Source of the DNA: a virus
DNA length: 60,220 nt
IMG/VR virus record: IMGVR_UViG_3300020498_000257
Location: 1 to 60,220 of that record
Strand: one strand, 5' to 3'
The translations under genes and the position numbers were made by a program. Below the pieces are notes generated by a model. That model was not told the origin of the DNA. It did no database searches and was given only the letters and a program-made list of their open reading frames with translations. This document shows, piece after piece, positions 6,378-25,669 of this stretch (position 1 is the stretch's first letter; every line of letters begins with the position of its first letter).

Positions 6378-6968
6378 TTAAAGGTTGATATTGTTTAGTG
6401 ACTCAACTGATGCGTCAAATTCAATTTCTTCTACTACAGATAAGAATGTGCGTAGCTTTGCTGAAATCTGAGGATCACCAATTTCAATCTTAATATAATT
6501 TGGTTTACCTGCAAAGAAAGCAGTTACCTTCTGGTCGTGTGCAGTATAGATAGCTCTTAACTCTTCGTCTGTAAGGTCTTGACCTAAAACTTTGTTTGTA
6601 GTGATATAGGTTTTGCACAATACCTCTTCAAACTGGTAAGGTGTGCTGTGTGAAGCCTTTGTCTGAAGTCCTTTAAATAGCTCAAGCCATGAATCTATGT
6701 CTCTATAGATGTAGATAAACTTTGTTTCATTATCAATTTCATATTCTTTTTCAAAGTTTAAGTTAGCTGGGAATCCAACATGTGCTTGGAAGTCAGACTC
6801 ACTGATTGTTCTGCAATAAGCATTTACTCCGTCTAATGTCTCTGGAAATGAGCCTACCTCTAGTACATTGTATGGGTAAAAAACTTTTGTTGTAAATCCG
6901 CTTTCAACTAAAAAGTTTCTTAATGGCTTATCTCCACTAAGATTAAATCCTAAAGTTCTTATTCTCAT
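6378..6968 (-). CDS. Sulfotransferase-like protein
   Basis: 196 residues. The layout suggests the P-loop sulfotransferase fold: an N-terminal strand-loop-helix (RTLGFNLSGDKPLRNFLVES), then a central strand with Arg-Asp and Trp (KFIYIYRDIDSWLELF), equivalent to the PAPS 3'-phosphate-binding RDPxxW region of the family. The N-terminal loop lacks the canonical lysine arrangement, so activity is uncertain. The stop overlaps the ATG of the upstream gene by one base. Confidence 0.5.
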   Translation of the reverse strand: MRIRTLGFNLSGDKPLRNFLVESGFTTKVFYPYNVLEVGSFPETLDGVNAYCRTISESDFQAHVGFPANLNFEKEYEIDNETKFIYIYRDIDSWLELFKGLQTKASHSTPYQFEEVLCKTYITTNKVLGQDLTDEELRAIYTAHDQKVTAFFAGKPNYIKIEIGDPQISAKLRTFLSVVEEIEFDASVESLNNINL

Positions 6969-7705
6969 TATGCTACCAATGCTTTCTCTATTGCATCTGT
7001 AATCTTTTTACGTGCAACTGAAGCTCTAACTGAACCAGTTTCTGTTAAGCCTCTTTCCATATTTTCTTGGTTCTGGTCTAACAGGTCACCGTTTCTGAAA
7101 TATGCAACAAGCTTTCCATTTCTATCTACTAAGTACTTCTCAAAATTACCAGACATGAATGAGCCGTTATCTTTTGTATCCTTATTCTTTGAACCTTGAA
7201 ATCCTAGCCACTTGTAAATAGCGTGTGGTGTTACGACTCCATGCTTTCCTGGAAGACCTGGAATGATATCACCTGGGCCAGGGTTAGACTCGACTAACTC
7301 TGAAAACTTATATGTTACATTATACTTTTCTGTTCCAAACTTACGTGCTCCCTTTGCATCTTCGCAACCATATACGTGCTCTCCGTATGTTAGTCCTGCT
7401 CCGCAATAGTCATTTGTTGGAACTGCTAAAACTTCAAATCCTTCGTTCTTATACTCTTGGTACAAATCTTCAATAACTCCGTATTGTGGTGCATTACCGC
7501 ATTCTCCTGTTACGTTAATGACAAGTGTTACCTTACCTTCAAATTCCTTTAGGAAATTATCTTCTCCGTCAGCCGACTTTAAGCTAATATCGTAGAAGCT
7601 TTTTACATCATCAATTGGTGTATCTTGGCAAATACACATAACCTCTGGTGCGTATGAAGCGCATTCTGATGTGTGTACTGCCGCTGGGTTGTCGATTGTA
7701 TTCAT
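6968..7705 (-). CDS. Glutathione-peroxidase-like (thioredoxin-fold) protein
   Basis: 245 residues. The thioredoxin-fold peroxidase pattern is clear: NVTGECGNAPQY carries the peroxidatic cysteine, followed by LYQEYKNEGFEVLAVPTNDY and, near the end, NFEKYLVDRNGKLVAYF. It would reduce peroxides with a thiol donor in the cytoplasm. An N-terminal segment of about 35 residues with three cysteines is extra. The start is fixed by a leaderless-type -10 box. It adds to the redox genes of this phage. Confidence 0.75.
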   Translation of the reverse strand: MNTIDNPAAVHTSECASYAPEVMCICQDTPIDDVKSFYDISLKSADGEDNFLKEFEGKVTLVINVTGECGNAPQYGVIEDLYQEYKNEGFEVLAVPTNDYCGAGLTYGEHVYGCEDAKGARKFGTEKYNVTYKFSELVESNPGPGDIIPGLPGKHGVVTPHAIYKWLGFQGSKNKDTKDNGSFMSGNFEKYLVDRNGKLVAYFRNGDLLDQNQENMERGLTETGSVRASVARKKITDAIEKALVA

Positions 7706-7988: not shown

Positions 7989-8178
7989 TTTTAATTACGC
8001 CCATTTGAATCATAGTCAAAACATCAGCTTTAGCTGAAACAGAATCAGCAATATACTGCTCTCCAGTTTCCATATCTGTAAGCTTCCATTTTCCAGGAGC
8101 TTTGGTGTAAACTGTTATTGATACTGGATCAGAATATTCTTTTACCTGCGTACCATCTAGCAAGGTTCTATTTGTCAT
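7933..8178 (-). CDS. Paralogue 2 of a TKAPGKW repeat-family protein
   Basis: 81 residues with TKAPGKWKLTDMETGEQYIA, matching the downstream neighbour over about 45 residues. The ATG overlaps the stop of the PLP-enzyme gene by 4 bases. I recognise no functional family; the small beta-rich unit might be a binding module. Confidence 0.6.
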   Translation of the reverse strand: MTNRTLLDGTQVKEYSDPVSITVYTKAPGKWKLTDMETGEQYIADSVSAKADVLTMIQMGVIKNVSKYTHGTWVKIEKTFK

Positions 8179-9218
8179 AATGAATCTATTATATCATTCC
8201 AGATGTCTTGAACATCTTCACAGCCAACTGATAATCTTATTAGGCTTTCAGATACTAAATGGCTTTCAAGGGGCCACCTTCTTCTTCTTTCCCATAATGA
8301 TTCTACGCTCCCAAGGCTAGTGGCATTAGCAATTAGCTTTGATCTATTACAAATTTCTTCAGTCTCTTCTGGAGAAGCATTTACTTCAAATGAGATCATG
8401 GCCCCAAACCCAGGGTAATAAACTTTTGAAATTTTGCTGTGATTACTTATTAATTTAAATAATTCTTTTGCATTTGACTCCGCCTTTTTAAATCTTAGCG
8501 GAAAGGTTCTAATGCCCCTTAAAGCTAACCAAGCTTCAAATGGCTGAGGTATTGTTCCATTTATTTTTCTTGAAAACTCCACAGCATCATACAAGGAATT
8601 GTTGTTAAAAGAAATAGATCCCATAAGCACATCGCTGTGTCCAGCAAGGTATTTAGTTATTGAATTCATTGACATATCTGCACCAAGGTCTAATGGCTTT
8701 TGATTCATTGGGGTTGCAAATGTATTGTCTACTCCTACTATTATGCCTGTTTTGTTACAAGATCTAATTAATCTATTAAGGTCTGCAACCTCAAGCCTAG
8801 GATTTGTTGGTGACTCAAGCCACAACATATATGCACCTTCTAGGTTTGCTAAAACCTCTCCTGTGTTTGTTATATCTACAAATCTTGCAATAATCTTTCC
8901 TTCATTATGCATTTTTTCCATTGTTGCATTAACTCCAGCGTAGCCTTGATTTGAAGCAACAACAATAGACCCTACAGGTATATTTGAAAACAATGAGCTT
9001 ATTGCTGACATGCCAGATGAAAAGGCTAATGTTTTTCCGCCTTCTAAAAGAGAAATTGTTTCTTCTAAAGATTTGCAAGAATCATTTCCGTATCTTGCGT
9101 AACCCCATTGCCCACCTGCAGTGTATGTAGAGTTTAAAGAAATTGGTGTGTTGAGTGGGCTATCTGGATATCTATCAGGTCTTCCTCCAGATATTGCATT
9201 CGTTTCAAAAGAATACAT
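8175..9218 (-). CDS. Cystathionine gamma-synthase-like PLP enzyme
   Basis: 347 residues, fold type I, Cys/Met-metabolism family. Visible features are FSSGMSAI for cofactor phosphate binding (about 66-73), the pyridine-nitrogen Asp in VDNTFATP (D164) and the Schiff-base lysine in NSITKYLAGHSDV (K189). The family catalyses gamma-elimination or replacement on homoserine and cystathionine derivatives; the substrate here cannot be read. The stop and start overlap the neighbours by 1-4 bases, placing it in one operon with an oxygenase and the microprotein cluster. It is somewhat shorter than typical family members (about 380-400). Confidence 0.85.
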   Translation of the reverse strand: MYSFETNAISGGRPDRYPDSPLNTPISLNSTYTAGGQWGYARYGNDSCKSLEETISLLEGGKTLAFSSGMSAISSLFSNIPVGSIVVASNQGYAGVNATMEKMHNEGKIIARFVDITNTGEVLANLEGAYMLWLESPTNPRLEVADLNRLIRSCNKTGIIVGVDNTFATPMNQKPLDLGADMSMNSITKYLAGHSDVLMGSISFNNNSLYDAVEFSRKINGTIPQPFEAWLALRGIRTFPLRFKKAESNAKELFKLISNHSKISKVYYPGFGAMISFEVNASPEETEEICNRSKLIANATSLGSVESLWERRRRWPLESHLVSESLIRLSVGCEDVQDIWNDIIDSL

Positions 9219-9862
9219 TATATTCCTATCGAATGATCAAATATAAAAGCTGGAAGAACATATCTAATAGGCCCAGACGTTACGTGTCTAACTCCATGCT
9301 CGTACTCCTGAGTTCCTGGAAAAACAAGTAAGCTTCCTTTCGGAGGTTTTATTTCTATATTTTTATTTGTAAAGTAAATTTCTCCGCCATTGTAATTATC
9401 ATTTATATAAGCAACTGAAGCCCAGGCGTGTCTGGCATCTGCTTTATCGTCATAGTGTGCTTTTAATTCTGTTCCATCATACATTCTTTGTATTGTTCCA
9501 AAACTTCTAAAATCTAGTTTGTCTGAATTTGGGAAAAAGAATTTAGAAACTCTTTCAGGAAGATCTTGAACAAGAGACGTTTTACCACTAAGTGGTGTTA
9601 CTTTGTCATCCCAATTTTCTGTTCGCTCAATTCCTGCTGCGTCTATATCACGACTTCCTGTGAGCTCTTCTGCACGATCTTCTAGGTGTTTTGTATAATG
9701 CAGTTGCATTGCCCAGTCATCTTCTTTGGAGTTATCTATTATTGCCCACAGTTCTTCTAGATCTTTTTCCGTTAAAAAGTCTCTGACCATCATTATGTTT
9801 GGATCCAACATGTCAAATGTATAGCCTAAGCCTCTAACAAATTCCGTGTTTAATGGAATCAT
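9218..9862 (-). CDS. 2OG-Fe(II) oxygenase (prolyl-4-hydroxylase type)
   Basis: 214 residues with a full facial triad: HYDD (H and D two apart), then SVAYINDNYNGGEIYF, then YEHGVRHVTSGPIRYVLPAF carrying the distal His and the Arg that binds 2-oxoglutarate. Such enzymes hydroxylate proteins or small molecules. The substrate is unknown; its neighbours are a PLP enzyme and small Cys-rich peptides. Confidence 0.85.
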   Translation of the reverse strand: MIPLNTEFVRGLGYTFDMLDPNIMMVRDFLTEKDLEELWAIIDNSKEDDWAMQLHYTKHLEDRAEELTGSRDIDAAGIERTENWDDKVTPLSGKTSLVQDLPERVSKFFFPNSDKLDFRSFGTIQRMYDGTELKAHYDDKADARHAWASVAYINDNYNGGEIYFTNKNIEIKPPKGSLLVFPGTQEYEHGVRHVTSGPIRYVLPAFIFDHSIGI

Positions 9863-9876
9863 TTTTTCTCCAATGT

Positions 9877-9966
9877 TTATACGACTGTAGAATCTAGAAC
9901 TACGTCTACTGCATCATCAATGCTATAAGTATGTTCTTTTGAACAAGACCCGCATTGTTTGCACAT
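9877..9966 (-). CDS. Microprotein of the M-C-x-x-C-G type, 29 residues
   Basis: Begins MCKQCGSCSKEH, then an acidic tail. It is the third member in this cluster starting M-C-x-x-C-G (others at 10165 and 10625). The same N-terminal CxxCGC arrangement binds nickel in HypB, so metal binding is plausible. The start codon abuts the stop of the basic gene upstream. Confidence 0.6.
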   Translation of the reverse strand: MCKQCGSCSKEHTYSIDDAVDVVLDSTVV

Positions 9967-10172
9967 TATACTTTCTTTCTGCCAAATTTCTTTGGTGGCT
10001 TTGGTATTAAACTTGTTTCTCTTCTTATACCGTGCTTGTTTCTATCAATCTTTACTCCCTGCCTTGGGTGCTTCTTTGGAGTATTTGTGCTTGTAACAGC
10101 ACCAGCAGGTGCACCAGCGTTAGCTGGTGGCACCATGCCAGTACCATCTTCTTTTTTAAAACTATTACTCAT
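9966..10172 (-). CDS. Basic Pro/Lys-rich protein, 68 residues
   Basis: Disordered-looking: an acidic and Gly/Pro/Ala-rich N-terminal half, then a strongly basic C-terminus (PKPPKKFGRKKV). No cysteines. It overlaps the preceding and following microprotein genes. It could bind nucleic acid, or serve as a leader-core substrate of a nearby enzyme; neither is shown. Confidence 0.5.
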   Translation of the reverse strand: MSNSFKKEDGTGMVPPANAGAPAGAVTSTNTPKKHPRQGVKIDRNKHGIRRETSLIPKPPKKFGRKKV

Positions 10173-10272
10173 TAGTTAAGCCTGACTCACCATCTCTAGA
10201 TACATCTGTAATTGTGACTGGGGTAGCGCCTTGGGTGCTACCTAATGTTTCGCATCCGCATTCATAGCACAT
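10165..10272 (-). CDS. Microprotein of the MCxxCGC type, 35 residues
   Basis: Begins MCYECGCETLGSTQG, with Thr/Ser-rich and acidic residues after. The N-terminus repeats the design of MCWLCGC at 10625. The ATG overlaps the stop of the upstream peptide gene by one base. Likely a metal-binding peptide or the substrate of a modifying enzyme. Confidence 0.65.
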   Translation of the reverse strand: MCYECGCETLGSTQGATPVTITDVSRDGESGLTNE

Positions 10273-10427
10273 TAGTTACAGTTCTCGCAATCTTTAACTG
10301 CACAATCAGCGTCGCCTCTTGTGTCTCTTGTGCACTTATCAGATGCAGCCGCTGTTGGCTTAATAGCCTGTGCAATTGCTGCTTCCTGTGTTGGTGCTAC
10401 AATTTCTTCTTTAGCAAATAGATCCAT
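10272..10427 (-). CDS. Small protein with Cys-rich C-terminus, 51 residues
   Basis: The first 30 residues are Ala-rich and leader-like (MDLFAKEEIVAPTQEAAIAQ). The last 21 carry four Cys (KC, DC, DCENCN). A leader followed by a cysteine-rich core is what one expects of a radical-SAM-modified peptide precursor, and such an enzyme is encoded three genes upstream; this is inference. Confidence 0.6.
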   Translation of the reverse strand: MDLFAKEEIVAPTQEAAIAQAIKPTAAASDKCTRDTRGDADCAVKDCENCN

Positions 10428-10430
10428 TTT

Positions 10431-10577
10431 TTACTTTGGGCCCTGTGCTGATGGTTGGTTAGATACATCTGATGCAGGAAATGCTGCTGATGGGTCGGCA
10501 GCGTACTGCTCTCCGATTGTGTGCTGTACTGCTGGCTTTACTTCGTTAAATCCTGTTAAATTTAATCCGTCTGACAT
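10431..10577 (-). CDS. Hypothetical 48-residue peptide
   Basis: Starts MSDGLNLTGFNEVKPA; no cysteine, rich in Ala, Ser, Pro and Gln. An AGGAGT-like sequence precedes the ATG. It is first of a run of peptide genes spaced by only a few bases. Function unknown. Confidence 0.5.
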   Translation of the reverse strand: MSDGLNLTGFNEVKPAVQHTIGEQYAADPSAAFPASDVSNQPSAQGPK

Positions 10578-10624
10578 TTTATTACTCCTATAGGTTATTT
10601 ATTTAAGCGGGACTAGTATTCCGC

Positions 10625-10729
10625 TCATCCCTCTATTATAGCATTTAGTTGATTAGGATCAGATTCCTCTGAAGGCTCTCTGTCGTTGCCTAAGCCTATG
10701 TGATCAGCGCACCCACATAACCAGCACAT
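10625..10729 (-). CDS. Microprotein of the MCxxCGC type coupled to radical SAM gene
   Basis: 34 residues, MCWLCGCADHIGLGND followed by an acidic tail. The ATG shares its A with the stop TGA of the radical-SAM gene, so the two are translated together. The CxxCGC-x(n)-H pattern resembles the HypB nickel site. It is a candidate substrate, metal carrier or regulator of the radical-SAM protein. Confidence 0.65.
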   Translation of the reverse strand: MCWLCGCADHIGLGNDREPSEESDPNQLNAIIEG

Positions 10730-11730
10730 CAATCGCCCCAGATGGCCGCAGAACAGCTGGTGCACATCTTAGAATAGGAGTCTTGAACCATGTCAGACCT
10801 ATCTTTACTGTGCCATATTTCTTTTATGGTTGATTTAAATGCATTGCCATATACTGTTTCAAAATCATAATCAGCACAACAAATAAATAAATCTCCATTT
10901 GCATTTATATGTACCCATTCATTTGTCCTGCTTCTAACTCCAAGGCCACCGTTACATCCGACTACACGGCTACCCTTGGGCTTTAAATACTTTTCAATTG
11001 CAAAACGCTGGGTCATTATCTTAAATGTTTCTAGGTGGGCAGCCCTGTCGTATAGGTGATGAGCACTGCTAATGCTGAGTCCTGGAAATATTAACTTAAA
11101 TCTATCATACTCTTTCTTCAAGTCTCCAGATTCTAGGCTTAGGTCCATCTTTGGCGCATTCTCTAATAGATCTAGCCATCCACCATTTTCAGTTAAAGAC
11201 ATTTCGTTAATTCCATTTATCATTAAATGAATAAAGATTGGGTTTTCTAATTTATTATTTTCTTCTATAAAATGTTTTATGTTGTCTATTACTTTAGGGA
11301 ATAGCTTTATGTTCATTCCCACATATTTAGACCAGGTCTCTGGGTCAGATGAAGGTACGTTTAAAAGTATTCCTTGAATAGAGTTTCTGTGCTTTATTAA
11401 AAGATCTGTTTTTGATTTGGTTAAGTTCACGCCGTTAGTTAGTATGTTTGTCTGAAAATTATATTTAGCATATAGATCCATCATTGCATCAAACTCTTTA
11501 TATAGTAAGACTTCATTATAATTAGCTGAAAACACAATTGATAGTTTGGGATCTACAAAATCTCCCTTGCCTTCTGTTAACTGAATAAATATATTTTCTA
11601 TCTCTGATAAAGGCATATCTCTTATTGCTGACTTTGGATTGCCAGCGTATGCTACTGGACAAAACCAGCAAGAAGAATTGCATATGCCATTTACATCAAG
11701 TTGAACTGCCTTGATAAGATAATCATTCAT
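10729..11730 (-). CDS. Radical SAM enzyme with SPASM-type C-terminus
   Basis: 333 residues. The N-terminus binds the SAM-cleaving 4Fe-4S cluster through CNSSCWFC (CxxxCxxC). The central region has ILTNGVNL, a typical barrel strand. The C-terminus has VGCNGG, then VHINANGDLFICCADYDF, then MCTSCSAAIWG, the cysteine pattern of SPASM auxiliary-cluster domains seen in peptide-modifying enzymes. The GN-x-F-K-STIKEIW segment is also characteristic. Target unknown; coupling to tiny Cys peptides suggests a peptide or protein substrate. Confidence 0.88.
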   Translation of the reverse strand: MNDYLIKAVQLDVNGICNSSCWFCPVAYAGNPKSAIRDMPLSEIENIFIQLTEGKGDFVDPKLSIVFSANYNEVLLYKEFDAMMDLYAKYNFQTNILTNGVNLTKSKTDLLIKHRNSIQGILLNVPSSDPETWSKYVGMNIKLFPKVIDNIKHFIEENNKLENPIFIHLMINGINEMSLTENGGWLDLLENAPKMDLSLESGDLKKEYDRFKLIFPGLSISSAHHLYDRAAHLETFKIMTQRFAIEKYLKPKGSRVVGCNGGLGVRSRTNEWVHINANGDLFICCADYDFETVYGNAFKSTIKEIWHSKDRSDMVQDSYSKMCTSCSAAIWGD

Positions 11731-13278: not shown

Positions 13279-13479
13279 CTAGTGTAATTCATGTATTTTT
13301 ACGTGGAACGAACACGGGTCTCCGCCTTCATCCCATTCTTCCATTTCTTCATCGGACATTGGTGGACCATCATGAGTATCGCAAAATACATCTGATATCC
13401 ATCCCCGATCATAGCCATTCTTAAGCCATATTTCAAACTCTAAATGATTAGCATCTTCTGAATCAAATTCTAGATCCAT
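13279..13479 (-). CDS. Small acidic phage protein
   Basis: 66 residues with WISDVFCDTHDGPPMSDEE and a C-terminal CSFHVKIHE. I recall similar short proteins with this CDTHDGPPM motif in actinobacteriophages; function unknown. The Cys/His pattern may bind a metal. It overlaps the thioredoxin gene by 10 bases. Confidence 0.7.
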   Translation of the reverse strand: MDLEFDSEDANHLEFEIWLKNGYDRGWISDVFCDTHDGPPMSDEEMEEWDEGGDPCSFHVKIHELH

Positions 13480-13772
13480 TCAGACAGCTCCTCTAGCAAT
13501 ACATGCTTAGGCTTAGCACCAAGTATCTTTTTAACTGGCTGACCTTCCTTAAATAGTACCATATAGGGGATTGTGGTTACTGAGTATTCTGCTGTTTTGA
13601 CAGGATTCTCATCAACATTTAACTTTCCAACCCAGAGCCCGCACTCATTTGATATCTCATCTAGGATCGGAGACACTTTTCTGCACGGTCCGCACCAAGG
13701 TGCCCAAAAATCAATAAGAACTAACTTATGATTTTTTAGTACAGAATCAAAAGATTCATCTGTTACTATCAT
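13470..13772 (-). CDS. Thioredoxin
   Basis: 100 residues, full-length thioredoxin fold with the active site WCGPC at residues 26-30 and the cis-proline region TTIPYMVLF. It reduces disulfides in the cytoplasm. Phage thioredoxins can serve ribonucleotide reductase, a polymerase, or peroxidases; here the phage also carries AhpC and GPx-like proteins but no reductase is visible. It overlaps the upstream gene by 4 bases. Confidence 0.93.
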   Translation of the reverse strand: MIVTDESFDSVLKNHKLVLIDFWAPWCGPCRKVSPILDEISNECGLWVGKLNVDENPVKTAEYSVTTIPYMVLFKEGQPVKKILGAKPKHVLLEELSEWI

Positions 13773-18432: not shown

Positions 18433-18615
18433 TTATTCCTCGTTTCTATTTCTGATCGGACTTGTAATTATCCAAAGAGCAGTTGTTGCCATGATTCCAT
18501 AACCTACAATTGTCTTTGCACTTCCGTCCAGAACTACCCAAGCAATAAACATACCAAGAAGGGTCCATGCTTGGTCTACCATATCTTTTAGGATATTCTT
18601 TATTATTCTTACCAT
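18433..18615 (-). CDS. Second holin-like membrane protein
   Basis: 60 residues with an amphipathic start (MVRIIKNILKDMVDQAWTLL) and two membrane helices separated by DGSAKTI. Holin or antiholin are the natural guesses because it is paired with the 18141 gene, though the endolysin lies 5 kb away. Its ATG overlaps the 3' end of the secreted-protein gene by 7 bases. Confidence 0.6.
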   Translation of the reverse strand: MVRIIKNILKDMVDQAWTLLGMFIAWVVLDGSAKTIVGYGIMATTALWIITSPIRNRNEE

Positions 18616-21239
18616 TTTCTTCCTCCTCGTGAACCTGGTGAATTAGCTCCTGATGAGCCTCCCCCAGAACTTCCTCCGCCTCCTGTGCCACCTCCTGTGG
18701 CTCCTCCTGTGGCAACTGCTGCTGCATTAATTGCGGCACCTGCTGCTACAACTGTTGCTACAACCATATCTGTTGCTTCTTCTCTTTCTTCATCTGACAT
18801 ATCTGCGCCTATATTGCTTAGTGCCTGAAGAGCAGCTCCAGGGTCTGAAAATGCTGTTGATAATAACTCTGCAGGATTTTCAAGCAATACTAAAGATGCT
18901 GCTACCTCTGCAGTAATAACAACTTCGTTACCATTTTCATCTTGACGAACTTCAACAGGGGTATCTGCAGGCAAATCTTTATACTCAATTCCAGCCTCTT
19001 GTATTTGTTCTTTGGTTAAAGATTCTCCAGGAGCAATAGACTCTACAAGAGCCTCTGCTACTAATTGTTTTTCTGCATTGGTTAATTTTCCATCTTCGGA
19101 TAAAGCATCTGCAAGATTTTGAACTTCTTCTGCAGTTACTTCACCATCACTTGCTAACTCATTTAAAATATCTTCTGCTTCCTCTGCATCTATTTTGCCA
19201 TCAGACAATGCGTCATCAACAGATTCTTCTACTGCTTCTTCTGATCCCGTCACAGGCTCTGTATCAGTTGGTTCTGTTTCCACAGGCTCTGTATCAATTG
19301 GTTCTGTTTCCACAGGCTCTGTATCAGTTGGTTCTGTTTCCACAGGCTCTGTATCAATTGGTTCTGTTTCCACAGGCTCTGTGTCAATTGGTTCTGTTTC
19401 CACAGGCTCTGTATCAATTGGTTCTGTTTCCACAGGCTCTGTGTCAATTGGTTCTGTTTCCACAGGCTCTGTGTCAATTGGTTCTGTTTCCACAGGCTCT
19501 GTATCAATTGGTGTGGTAGTTACTGGTGTTGTATCTACAGGTGGCACGACTACTGGTGTTGTATCTACAGGTGGTACGACTACGGGTGTTGTATCTACAG
19601 GTGGTACGACTACGGGTGGTTCAACTGGTGCAGGTGGAGCAGGGGCTGGCAAGGGCGCTGGTGCAGGAACTGCATCAATTACTGTTTGAGCTGCTGCCAC
19701 TATTGTAGGTGCTGTAGTTACTTTTTCTACTGCTACAGAAACTGTTGCAATTGCCGCTACTTTATTAGTTAAGTCTGTGCTTGCATTATTTAATGATGTA
19801 ATTGTATTTTCAGAAACAGTTGCAATTGGTGCAATAACTGTATTTGTATTTGCTGTATTTGTTGCAACAATAGCAGTAACTGCTGAGTTTAATGTAGCAA
19901 TTTGTGCATTTGCTGTATCAATTGCTGCCAAGACTGTTGCATTGTCTGGATCAGGGGTGGGAGTAAATGCAGCGCCTTGACTAATTGTTCCAGTAAATCC
20001 CGTAGTAGTGCTTGTATTACTAATATTTGTTACGGGACCATTTGTAGTCTCCCTTACATTAAACCTAGCACCATTTGGTATTGGTCCAGTCACGCTTACA
20101 TCTGCTTGCCATGCGCCATCTGAAGGGTTAACATCCGCATTAAATCTAACTTGAGTCATTTGTGTTTCTGCTGTTTGCAAAGGATAAACTCTAAGATCCC
20201 AAGCAACGCTAAGGGTGTTTGTAGTTGTTGAGTATGTAATTCCAGATCCATTACTCCAGGTAGTCCAGTCATATCCTGCTATAGAAATAGAAGGCGCATT
20301 CGGAGTAGAATAATAGTTTCCACCTTCATTTACACCAAAGGTAATTGTGGCATTAGACCCAACGTAAACATTATTGTATGTGACTCCGCCCATCTGTAAA
20401 TTAAATGGAAGGTTCATTCGAACACCAGCGTCATCTACATTAGATAAAACGTTTGTGGTAGTGCCAATGGTTGCCGCTAGAGCATTGACTGCATCTTGAG
20501 CGTTATTAATTGCTACATTTGCTTGAGTTAATTGTGTTTGAGCCTCTGTCCGTGCAGGTGTTACTGCTGCCACCGCAGTATTTGCTGCAGCTACTGTTAC
20601 AGTAGCCGTATCTACTGCTGTCTGTGCTGATTGAACTAAAACTGTGGCTGTCTCTGATTGGGCAACTTCTGTTGCAATTGCTGTGGCTACTTGTGCAACG
20701 GTGGTTGGGGCCTCTGTCATTAATGGAGTTGCTGTTGCTATCACAGTGGCTATTGCAGAATCTACAGTAGTAACGGCTTGCGTTACTACTGCTTGTGCCG
20801 CTACAACCTCTGGTGTTTGAGTTGTAGCGCTTACTGGGATTGCTGCTACGGCTTCTGTAACGGATGCTACCGTTGAAGTAATTGTTTGAACAACTGCTGT
20901 TGCTGTTTCTACGGCTGAGGATACATTTGATACTTCTGCTACCGCAGCCGTCGCTGCTGCTACCGCTGTATTTGCTGCTGCTACAGCAGTGTTAGACGCT
21001 GTTACTGATTCAACCGCAGTGGCTATAGTCACTGTTGCTGTATCCGATGCAGCTGCGGCTTGTGCAACTTCTGTGGTTGCGGTTGCAATGGCTGTGTTTA
21101 CTGCCTGTTGTGCAGGGCTTACCACAACTTGTTCTGCAGGAGCAGGAGGCTCATTAGCATTAGCAAAGTTAGGACTAAAAAGGAAAAGCCAGCCGATTAT
21201 AAAAAGGCTGGTTAAAAAATACTGTAACTTTCTAGTCAA
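18609..21239 (-). CDS. Giant secreted repeat protein (876 residues)
   Basis: A signal peptide (KLQYFLTSLFIIGWLFLFSP, cleavage near ANA) is followed by about 250 residues of Ala/Thr/Val helical repeats. Next comes a nidogen-like beta domain (DDAGVRMNLPFNLQMGGVTY, NNVYVGSNATITFG), then VVPPVDTT repeats, eight DTEPVETEPI decapeptides, three EF-hand-like units (DGKIDAEE, DGEVTAEE, DGKLTNAE) and a Gly/Ser tail. It starts at TTG with AGGAGAT upstream. No cell-wall sorting signal is visible. The architecture is that of a bacterial surface or matrix protein; it may coat the host or be a virion-associated adhesin. Confidence 0.8.
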   Translation of the reverse strand: MTRKLQYFLTSLFIIGWLFLFSPNFANANEPPAPAEQVVVSPAQQAVNTAIATATTEVAQAAAASDTATVTIATAVESVTASNTAVAAANTAVAAATAAVAEVSNVSSAVETATAVVQTITSTVASVTEAVAAIPVSATTQTPEVVAAQAVVTQAVTTVDSAIATVIATATPLMTEAPTTVAQVATAIATEVAQSETATVLVQSAQTAVDTATVTVAAANTAVAAVTPARTEAQTQLTQANVAINNAQDAVNALAATIGTTTNVLSNVDDAGVRMNLPFNLQMGGVTYNNVYVGSNATITFGVNEGGNYYSTPNAPSISIAGYDWTTWSNGSGITYSTTTNTLSVAWDLRVYPLQTAETQMTQVRFNADVNPSDGAWQADVSVTGPIPNGARFNVRETTNGPVTNISNTSTTTGFTGTISQGAAFTPTPDPDNATVLAAIDTANAQIATLNSAVTAIVATNTANTNTVIAPIATVSENTITSLNNASTDLTNKVAAIATVSVAVEKVTTAPTIVAAAQTVIDAVPAPAPLPAPAPPAPVEPPVVVPPVDTTPVVVPPVDTTPVVVPPVDTTPVTTTPIDTEPVETEPIDTEPVETEPIDTEPVETEPIDTEPVETEPIDTEPVETEPIDTEPVETEPTDTEPVETEPIDTEPVETEPTDTEPVTGSEEAVEESVDDALSDGKIDAEEAEDILNELASDGEVTAEEVQNLADALSEDGKLTNAEKQLVAEALVESIAPGESLTKEQIQEAGIEYKDLPADTPVEVRQDENGNEVVITAEVAASLVLLENPAELLSTAFSDPGAALQALSNIGADMSDEEREEATDMVVATVVAAGAAINAAAVATGGATGGGTGGGGSSGGGSSGANSPGSRGGRKW
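19251..19512 (-). repeat. Eight 30-bp tandem repeats (DTEPVETEPI)
   Basis: Units of 30 bases run from 19261 to 19500 with partial units at both ends, differing mainly at GTA/GTG and CAA/CAG positions. They encode an acidic Pro/Thr linker; copy number is likely to vary. Confidence 0.9.
19531..19620 (-). repeat. Three 30-bp tandem repeats (VVPPVDTTP)
   Basis: Three consecutive 30-base units encode a Val/Pro-rich linker directly before the DTEPVETEPI array in the secreted protein. Confidence 0.85.
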
Positions 21240-25198: not shown

Positions 25199-25669
25199 TT
25201 AATCCTTAAGTGACTTCCACGGATTCGGTGGGAGCTTTAAGCTTGACTCTAGCATCCAATTCCACTCTTGATGCTTCTTTAACAATTCTGATAAATGTGG
25301 AACAAGTGCCCACTCTTTGCTTGCTATTGCTTGATCTGTAACAACTCGAATCTCTTCAATCATTGTTTTATTAATTGGCACAAGATGCGTTGCCATTTCA
25401 ACACCACAATAGGTGTCTGGCTTAACATTGCCTAGGGTTTGTGATGCAGATATATCTTCAATAGTATATAAGGCTTCTCCACCTAATCTACGTAGCCATA
25501 GGGAGGTTTCCATGAGCAGTCTATCTGACTCTAAGTATATCTCTTTGTATACGATCTGTGACTGTCTCATTAAAACAGACTCTGTATTTAAATAAAAACC
25601 CTTTACAAGGTTTGAATATATAAATGAGTTTGACTGTAATTCCTGTAGTGAGTTAATTAATTGTTTCAT
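25199..25669 (-). CDS. Dps-like ferritin-fold protein, possibly degenerate
   Basis: 156 residues, all helical. LQSNSFIYSNLVKGFYLNTE, followed by ESDRLLMETSLWLRRLGGEA and TIEDISASQTL, lines up with the Dps core (helix, then ...IAERIRALGG, then ...TLKE). Several ferroxidase ligands of Dps are replaced at the equivalent positions, so it might form a cage without iron oxidation. Confidence is moderate. A leaderless promoter precedes it. Confidence 0.55.
   Translation of the reverse strand: MKQLINSLQELQSNSFIYSNLVKGFYLNTESVLMRQSQIVYKEIYLESDRLLMETSLWLRRLGGEALYTIEDISASQTLGNVKPDTYCGVEMATHLVPINKTMIEEIRVVTDQAIASKEWALVPHLSELLKKHQEWNWMLESSLKLPPNPWKSLKD

Follow-up and report, generated by a model that had tools for sequence, protein, structure and literature searches.

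Radical chemistry on peptides has mostly been described in cells, in pathways to natural products and cofactors. The nearest working analogy to the locus described here is QhpD, a radical SAM (rSAM) enzyme that has one or more auxiliary clusters and modifies the small Cys/Trp/Asp-bearing polypeptide QhpC encoded beside it (PMC7876137). In both cases an rSAM enzyme accompanies a dedicated small polypeptide, and further tailoring enzymes are found in the operon. However, QhpC carries a leader of 28 residues and, after processing by a subtilisin-like protease, ends up as a subunit of quinohemoprotein amine dehydrogenase, whereas the viral peptide (P1) is leaderless with only 23-41 residues, and no sequence relation between the two was found.

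RiPP precursor-rSAM pairs (sactipeptides, epipeptides and triceptides) likewise couple a small peptide ORF to an rSAM gene, but P1 is conserved at its N-terminus and has a neutral tail, and no RRE, leader, protease or exporter was seen beside the pair. The enzyme resembles BtrN and SkfB (twitch-type), EpeE (an epimerase) and SuiB in fold and cluster-ligand layout, but only at 13-16% sequence identity; it lacks an N-terminal RRE and was virus-only in the scans made here. P1 also shares the identical Cys2/Cys5/Cys7 spacing right after Met1 with the nickel site of HypB, in which the N-terminal amine is the fourth ligand (PMC7055735). In contrast to HypB, P1 is a free micropeptide outside any GTPase and has a conserved W3 and ADHxGxGN segment.

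Organization of the locus

The window, the whole stretch of DNA analysed, spans the 60,220 bp of an uncultivated virus record, and all of the genes listed below lie on its minus strand. The phage is related to Stanwilliamsviridae that infect Streptomyces, with 64.6% for the terminase and 58% for the DNA polymerase, and carries a WhiB gene, so its host is likely actinobacterial. The operon contained the following genes.

10729-11730, minus strand: rSAM enzyme, 333 aa; PF04055 2.7e-8 and PF13186 2.3e-10 (Pfam); putative twitch-type C-terminus
10625-10729, minus strand: P1, 34-aa micropeptide MCWLCGCADHIGLGNDREPSEESDPNQLNAIIEG (begins MCWLCGCADHIGLGN), at the enzyme stop codon
10431-10577, minus strand: P2, 48 aa, P2-P6 cassette; homologues in the rSAM-less loci L073, L076, L106 and L122
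10272-10427, minus strand: P3, 51 aa, Cys-rich C-terminus, P2-P6 cassette; homologues in the rSAM-less loci L073, L076 and L129
10165-10272, minus strand: P4, 35 aa, MCYECGC..., enzyme-independent family; alongside P6 in many rSAM-less loci
9966-10172, minus strand: P5, 68 aa, basic, P2-P6 cassette; cassette also in the rSAM-less loci L073, L076, L106 and L122
9877-9966, minus strand: P6, 29 aa, MCKQCGSCSKEH... (MCKQCGSC), enzyme-independent family; relatives in 187 viral contigs
9218-9862, minus strand: 2OG-Fe(II) oxygenase; PF13640 7.9e-12; operon member, not specific to the module
8175-9218, minus strand: Cys/Met-metabolism PLP-dependent enzyme, 347 aa; PF01053 2.5e-80; optional third member of the module

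The rSAM gene and six tiny ORFs agreed in size, order and place with the initial annotation, which had also correctly described an operon running on into the 2OG oxygenase (PF13640) and the PLP enzyme (PF01053). The enzyme stop was indeed coupled to the P1 start, with the TGA overlapping the ATG by one base (TGATG at 10731-10727), and the three peptides said to open with M-C-x-x-C-G were P1, P4 and P6 and no others in the window. ATG-initiated MCxxCG(x)C ORFs occurred 3 times in the window versus 0 times in 300 mononucleotide shuffles, and the recurrence of the motif is therefore not due to chance. Selection on the homologues was also purifying at the protein level. The Pfam and NCBIfam scan of the cassette proteins gave no family match for the tiny ORFs.

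Glutathione-peroxidase-like (PF00255) and thioredoxin genes lie nearby (6968-7705 and 13470-13772) and give the region a thiol-redox theme. Upstream of the rSAM operon is a subtilase (PF00082; 13968-15146) with an apparent signal peptide, which looks secreted, whereas the QhpC protease acts in processing that polypeptide. The window also encodes an 876-aa protein (18609-21239) with an extensin-like proline-rich stretch (PF02095, below cut-off).

Family and fold of the enzyme

The enzyme belongs to the radical SAM superfamily by its CxxxCxxC motif (C17-x3-C21-x2-C24, invariant in 44 sequences from clades A and B, defined below), its PF04055 match above cut-off and its confident barrel model. 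It had been annotated as SPASM-type, and the assignment to rSAM proteins was sound (PF04055, PF13186). However, the full SPASM domain is defined by a seven-Cys motif, CX9-15GX4C-gap-CX2CX5CX3C-gap-C, with two auxiliary clusters (PMC6231123), and the enzyme has only C259, GX4C284, C285 and C323xxC326, cysteines conserved in clades A and B. This C...GX4C...CX2C layout, in a chain that ends ~7 residues past C326, fits the twitch subclass (BtrN, SkfB and MoaA), which has a truncated SPASM domain and one auxiliary cluster, and the enzyme is a probable member.

The structure was taken from an AlphaFold model made as an in-frame read-through rSAM-P1 chain, which was confident for the enzyme and left the P1 part unresolved (pLDDT <50). 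The best Foldseek match to the enzyme model was the twitch protein BtrN (E 3e-10, TMt 0.70), followed by DesII, SuiB and EpeE, and the fold neighbours also included SkfB and anSME. SuiB, EpeE, SkfB and anSME modify peptides, and the modelled fold would fall between small-molecule and peptide chemistry. The rSAM core begins near residue 7, with no N-terminal domain and hence no N-terminal RRE, and no RRE match was obtained among the ten cassette proteins scanned (Pfam, NCBIfam).

Co-occurrence of the enzyme and P1

Viral scans returned 20 loci with the enzyme as query, all with P1 (20/20), and 46 loci with P1 as query, all with the enzyme directly upstream within about 1.1 kb (46/46). Across 2.9 million viral contigs, a DNA pattern scan for MCWxCGC matched 47 times. 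The P1 loci adjoining the enzyme accounted for 46 of these, and the 47th arose by chance in GC-rich DNA and lacks ADH.

The broader enzyme scan gave 79 loci, which fell into two groups in the tree: clade A, at 57-100% identity to the enzyme of the window (monophyletic, SH-aLRT 100), and clade B, at 35-49%. P1 was present in 20 of the 21 clade A lineages (90% identity clusters) and never at clade B loci. The clade A exception was L188 (59% identity), with P1 absent from its 32.7-kb contig. At L190 (2344-2420), a clean in-frame 39-nt deletion takes out exactly MCWICGCADHVGL, the conserved P1 core with the start codon, and leaves the P1 tail readable and the enzyme frame open. The pair was kept in three gene orders (rSAM-P1, rSAM-PLP-P1 and rSAM-P1-PLP), with P2-P6 present or absent. 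P1 is thus a dedicated partner of the enzyme, and the link is real and specific to P1 alone, although rSAM-P1 co-occurrence by itself is no proof of catalysis.

All relatives were metagenomic contigs, part of them fragments, and the scans of the collections, seeded by exact matches to short motifs, may have passed over distant relatives. Isolate phages gave no match to the enzyme, P6 or the clade B enzymes, and merely weak, chance-like matches to P1 and P4. P1 was not found in bacterial genomes, and the enzyme had only two remote matches there (25-28%); the enzyme family looks virus-specific. The carriers of the pair are uncultivated water-dwelling viruses with actinobacteria-like hosts. Open-licence papers searched by title and abstract (rSAM with phage RiPP, freshwater actinophage, phage precursor peptides) contained no description of the pair, and this virus-only enzyme-peptide pair was undescribed in the databases and papers searched.

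Sequence conservation and selection in P1

P1 ranged from 23 to 41 residues with the consensus MCW-x-CGC-ADH-x-G-x-GN and a dispensable tail, which was nearly absent in the shortest member (L063, 23 residues). In 18 divergent P1 sequences M1, C2, W3, C5, G6, C7, A8, H10 and G12 were invariant and D9, G14 and N15 nearly so. The pN/pS ratio was 0.10 over codons 2-16 (strong purifying selection) and 0.81 in the tail (neutral drift), both figures being approximate because pS was near saturation. Together with the 23-residue L063, this selection pattern indicates that the functional part of P1 is its N-terminus, leaving no room for a leader.

A RiPP precursor has a leader or follower and a core, while in P1 the conserved part is N-terminal and the tail drifts. 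The suggestion of a RiPP-like system was not borne out, since P1 showed no leader/core split and the enzyme no N-terminal recognition domain, and the RiPP label is unestablished for the P1 system. Next to P1 there was no sign of an exporter or of a cytoplasmic protease for processing.

The HypB-type MCxxCGC N-terminus, with C2-x2-C5-G-C7 spacing, was found in all P1 homologues and in P4-type peptides, and P6 departs from it with Cys8 in place of Cys7. A metallopeptide nature of P1 is plausible from this motif.

The PLP enzyme and the 2OG oxygenase

The PLP enzyme belongs to the Fold-type I family PF01053 and has an invariant K189 in its (S/T)KY motif. Its close viral homologues all lay in P1-bearing contigs (27/27), and searches of entire records yielded none for 21 sampled P6-only records, 7 clade B records or the PLP-less clade A lineages. 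The link of this enzyme to the module was therefore upheld: it is an optional member and was never found without the rSAM enzyme and P1.

The 2OG oxygenase did not prove to be a specific member of the module, as similar matches occurred at 19/49 clade A, 17/32 clade B and 26/75 P6-only loci. At two loci (L056:4515-5231 and L060:1848-2564), a 2OG oxygenase has an N-terminal extension, MCNSCGC or MCTTCGC, with the motif of the free micropeptides.

A ferritin-like protein was rejected as a module member because it was far from the pair in several lineages and present in contigs without P1. The ferritin/Dps-like protein of the window (25202-25669), a type found across clade A phages, scored 66.7% to the copy beside rSAM in other lineages, and several classical ferritin ligands are apparently missing from it.

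Candidate roles of P1

In our best model, which we hold with about equal belief and doubt, P1 would be the polypeptide substrate of the enzyme, modified in its N-terminal CxxCGC core. P1 would lose Met1, its N-terminal Cys and CxxCGC would form a small metal- or thiol-rich head that may bind metal, and the enzyme would install a radical modification within residues 2-15. The PLP enzyme, where present, would act in the P1 pathway. Within this segment, W3 and ADH distinguish P1 from its relatives P4 and P6, which live without the enzyme and lack W3 and ADHxGxGN. The model draws on the strict co-occurrence, the adjacency and coupling of the genes, the selection on residues 2-16, the conserved cluster cysteines, the restriction of the PLP enzyme to P1-bearing contigs and the presence of peptide-modifying enzymes among the fold neighbours. 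Leader-independent rSAM epimerases are known (PMC8326336), so the missing leader leaves a substrate role possible.

Several results argue against the substrate model. Clade B enzymes and L188 persist without P1, so the family must do some work that does not depend on this peptide. L190 keeps an open enzyme frame without the P1 core, no RRE or leader/core split was found, no exporter or processing protease adjoins P1, and BtrN, the closest fold match, acts on a small molecule. P1 also had low confidence (pLDDT <50) in the read-through model. We favour P1 as substrate over P1 as a metal or Fe-S accessory, and the latter over P1 as an adaptor. The wider proposal, that the viral rSAM enzyme, in some phages together with the PLP enzyme, turns the leaderless CxxCGC micropeptide of 23-41 residues into a modified metallopeptide of a new kind, or into a cofactor carried on a peptide, for use during infection, is tentative, and we would sooner doubt than accept it.

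P1 might instead serve the enzyme as an accessory: a very small peptide that binds metal or Fe-S through its three Cys together with His or the N-terminal amine, and that supplies the enzyme with metal, sulfur or electrons. The sulfur would then come from the PLP enzyme. We consider this unlikely. In its favour, P1 and P4 match the spacing of the HypB Ni site with its fourth, N-terminal ligand (PMC7055735), sister families with the same motif occur without the enzyme, the motif grafted on the oxygenase N-terminus (L056, L060) suggests a metal role independent of modification, and the PLP enzyme belongs to the Cys/Met group. However, an accessory role does not explain why P1 alone has W3, A8, D9, H10, G12 and N15 fixed or nearly fixed, or how clade B enzymes, whose cluster cysteines are the same, do without a peptide of this kind.

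Clade B enzymes and other possible targets

The neighbours of clade B enzymes were a PF11397 GlcNAc-type glycosyltransferase (25/32 loci), the 2OG oxygenases counted above and, often, P/T-rich fibre-like proteins with Cys-containing C-terminal tips. This context suggests that in an older role the enzyme may have modified virion proteins or glycans. It is also the chief reason to think that P1 may have been recruited as a partner and was not the original substrate. The enzyme could accordingly act on another target (a virion protein or glycan), with P1 as an adaptor or regulator that clade A took on. The BtrN-like fold and the retention of the enzyme without P1 at L188 and L190 are in keeping with this reading, but we judge it improbable, as the glycosyltransferase is nearly absent from clade A (2/49) and P1 stays while the neighbours change.

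At L193-L226, the clade B enzyme, PF11397, 2OG oxygenase and fibre-like genes together form a possible virion-modification cluster. A DUF6171-like CxxCGC small protein (CPELIKLTKQCKKCGCFM...CPIGKW) was found at 12/32 clade B loci, within ~1.2 kb upstream of most enzymes of 41-49% identity (L193-L206). These proteins were dropped as P1 equivalents because they also occur in isolate Synechococcus and Stenotrophomonas phages, as found with a composite query whose N-terminal half was approximate and whose C-terminal part alone was verbatim L195. No rSAM annotation was seen near the isolate-phage proteins in the two regions opened.

The P2-P6 cassette

The initial annotation had coupled the enzyme to the whole run of tiny peptides. 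This held for P1 (46/46 loci, 20/21 lineages) and failed for P4 and P6: among the best 80 of the 187 contigs with P6 relatives, 75 had no rSAM in the DNA fetched around them (at most 6 kb to either side), and in rSAM-less loci P6 was accompanied by P4-type peptides and P2/P3/P5. The occurrence of peptides in phages lacking the enzyme, proposed as grounds for refuting the link, was thus seen for P4 and P6, whereas P1 did not show it. The pN/pS ratio was 0.25-0.34 for P6 and 0.32 for P4 over codons 2-16.

As P1 is always found with the enzyme and P6, P4, P2, P3 and P5 commonly without it, the operon is an enzyme-P1 module joined to an independent peptide cassette. P2-P6 is a separate cassette unrelated to the enzyme, and two of its members share the MCxxCG(x)C start by happenstance. 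The proposal that the enzyme processes all of the MCxxCG peptides as a RiPP-like family, attractive since P1, P4 and P6 share an N-terminal motif and one operon, is very improbable given those 75 enzyme-free loci and the enzyme-P1 pairs without P2-P6 in L052, L059, L061, L062 and L066. That P1 is a hitchhiker with a function unlinked to the enzyme is scarcely credible: phage genes often move in blocks and the known pairs are all in uncultivated contigs, but the pairing is kept in 20 lineages and in three or more gene orders, even when other neighbours are exchanged.

The virus-only enzyme and its near-invariant micropeptide partner would be a compact, easily expressed test case and raise the question of how phages use radical chemistry. 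A second question is whether annotation overlooks a class of metal-binding proteins in the MCxxCG(x)C micropeptides, which these phages carry widely. At least four distinct micropeptide families open with MCxxCG(x)C, and the P2-P6-type cassette of small, low-complexity peptides recurs without rSAM in L073, L076, L106, L122, L129, L138 and others (P6 at 6001).
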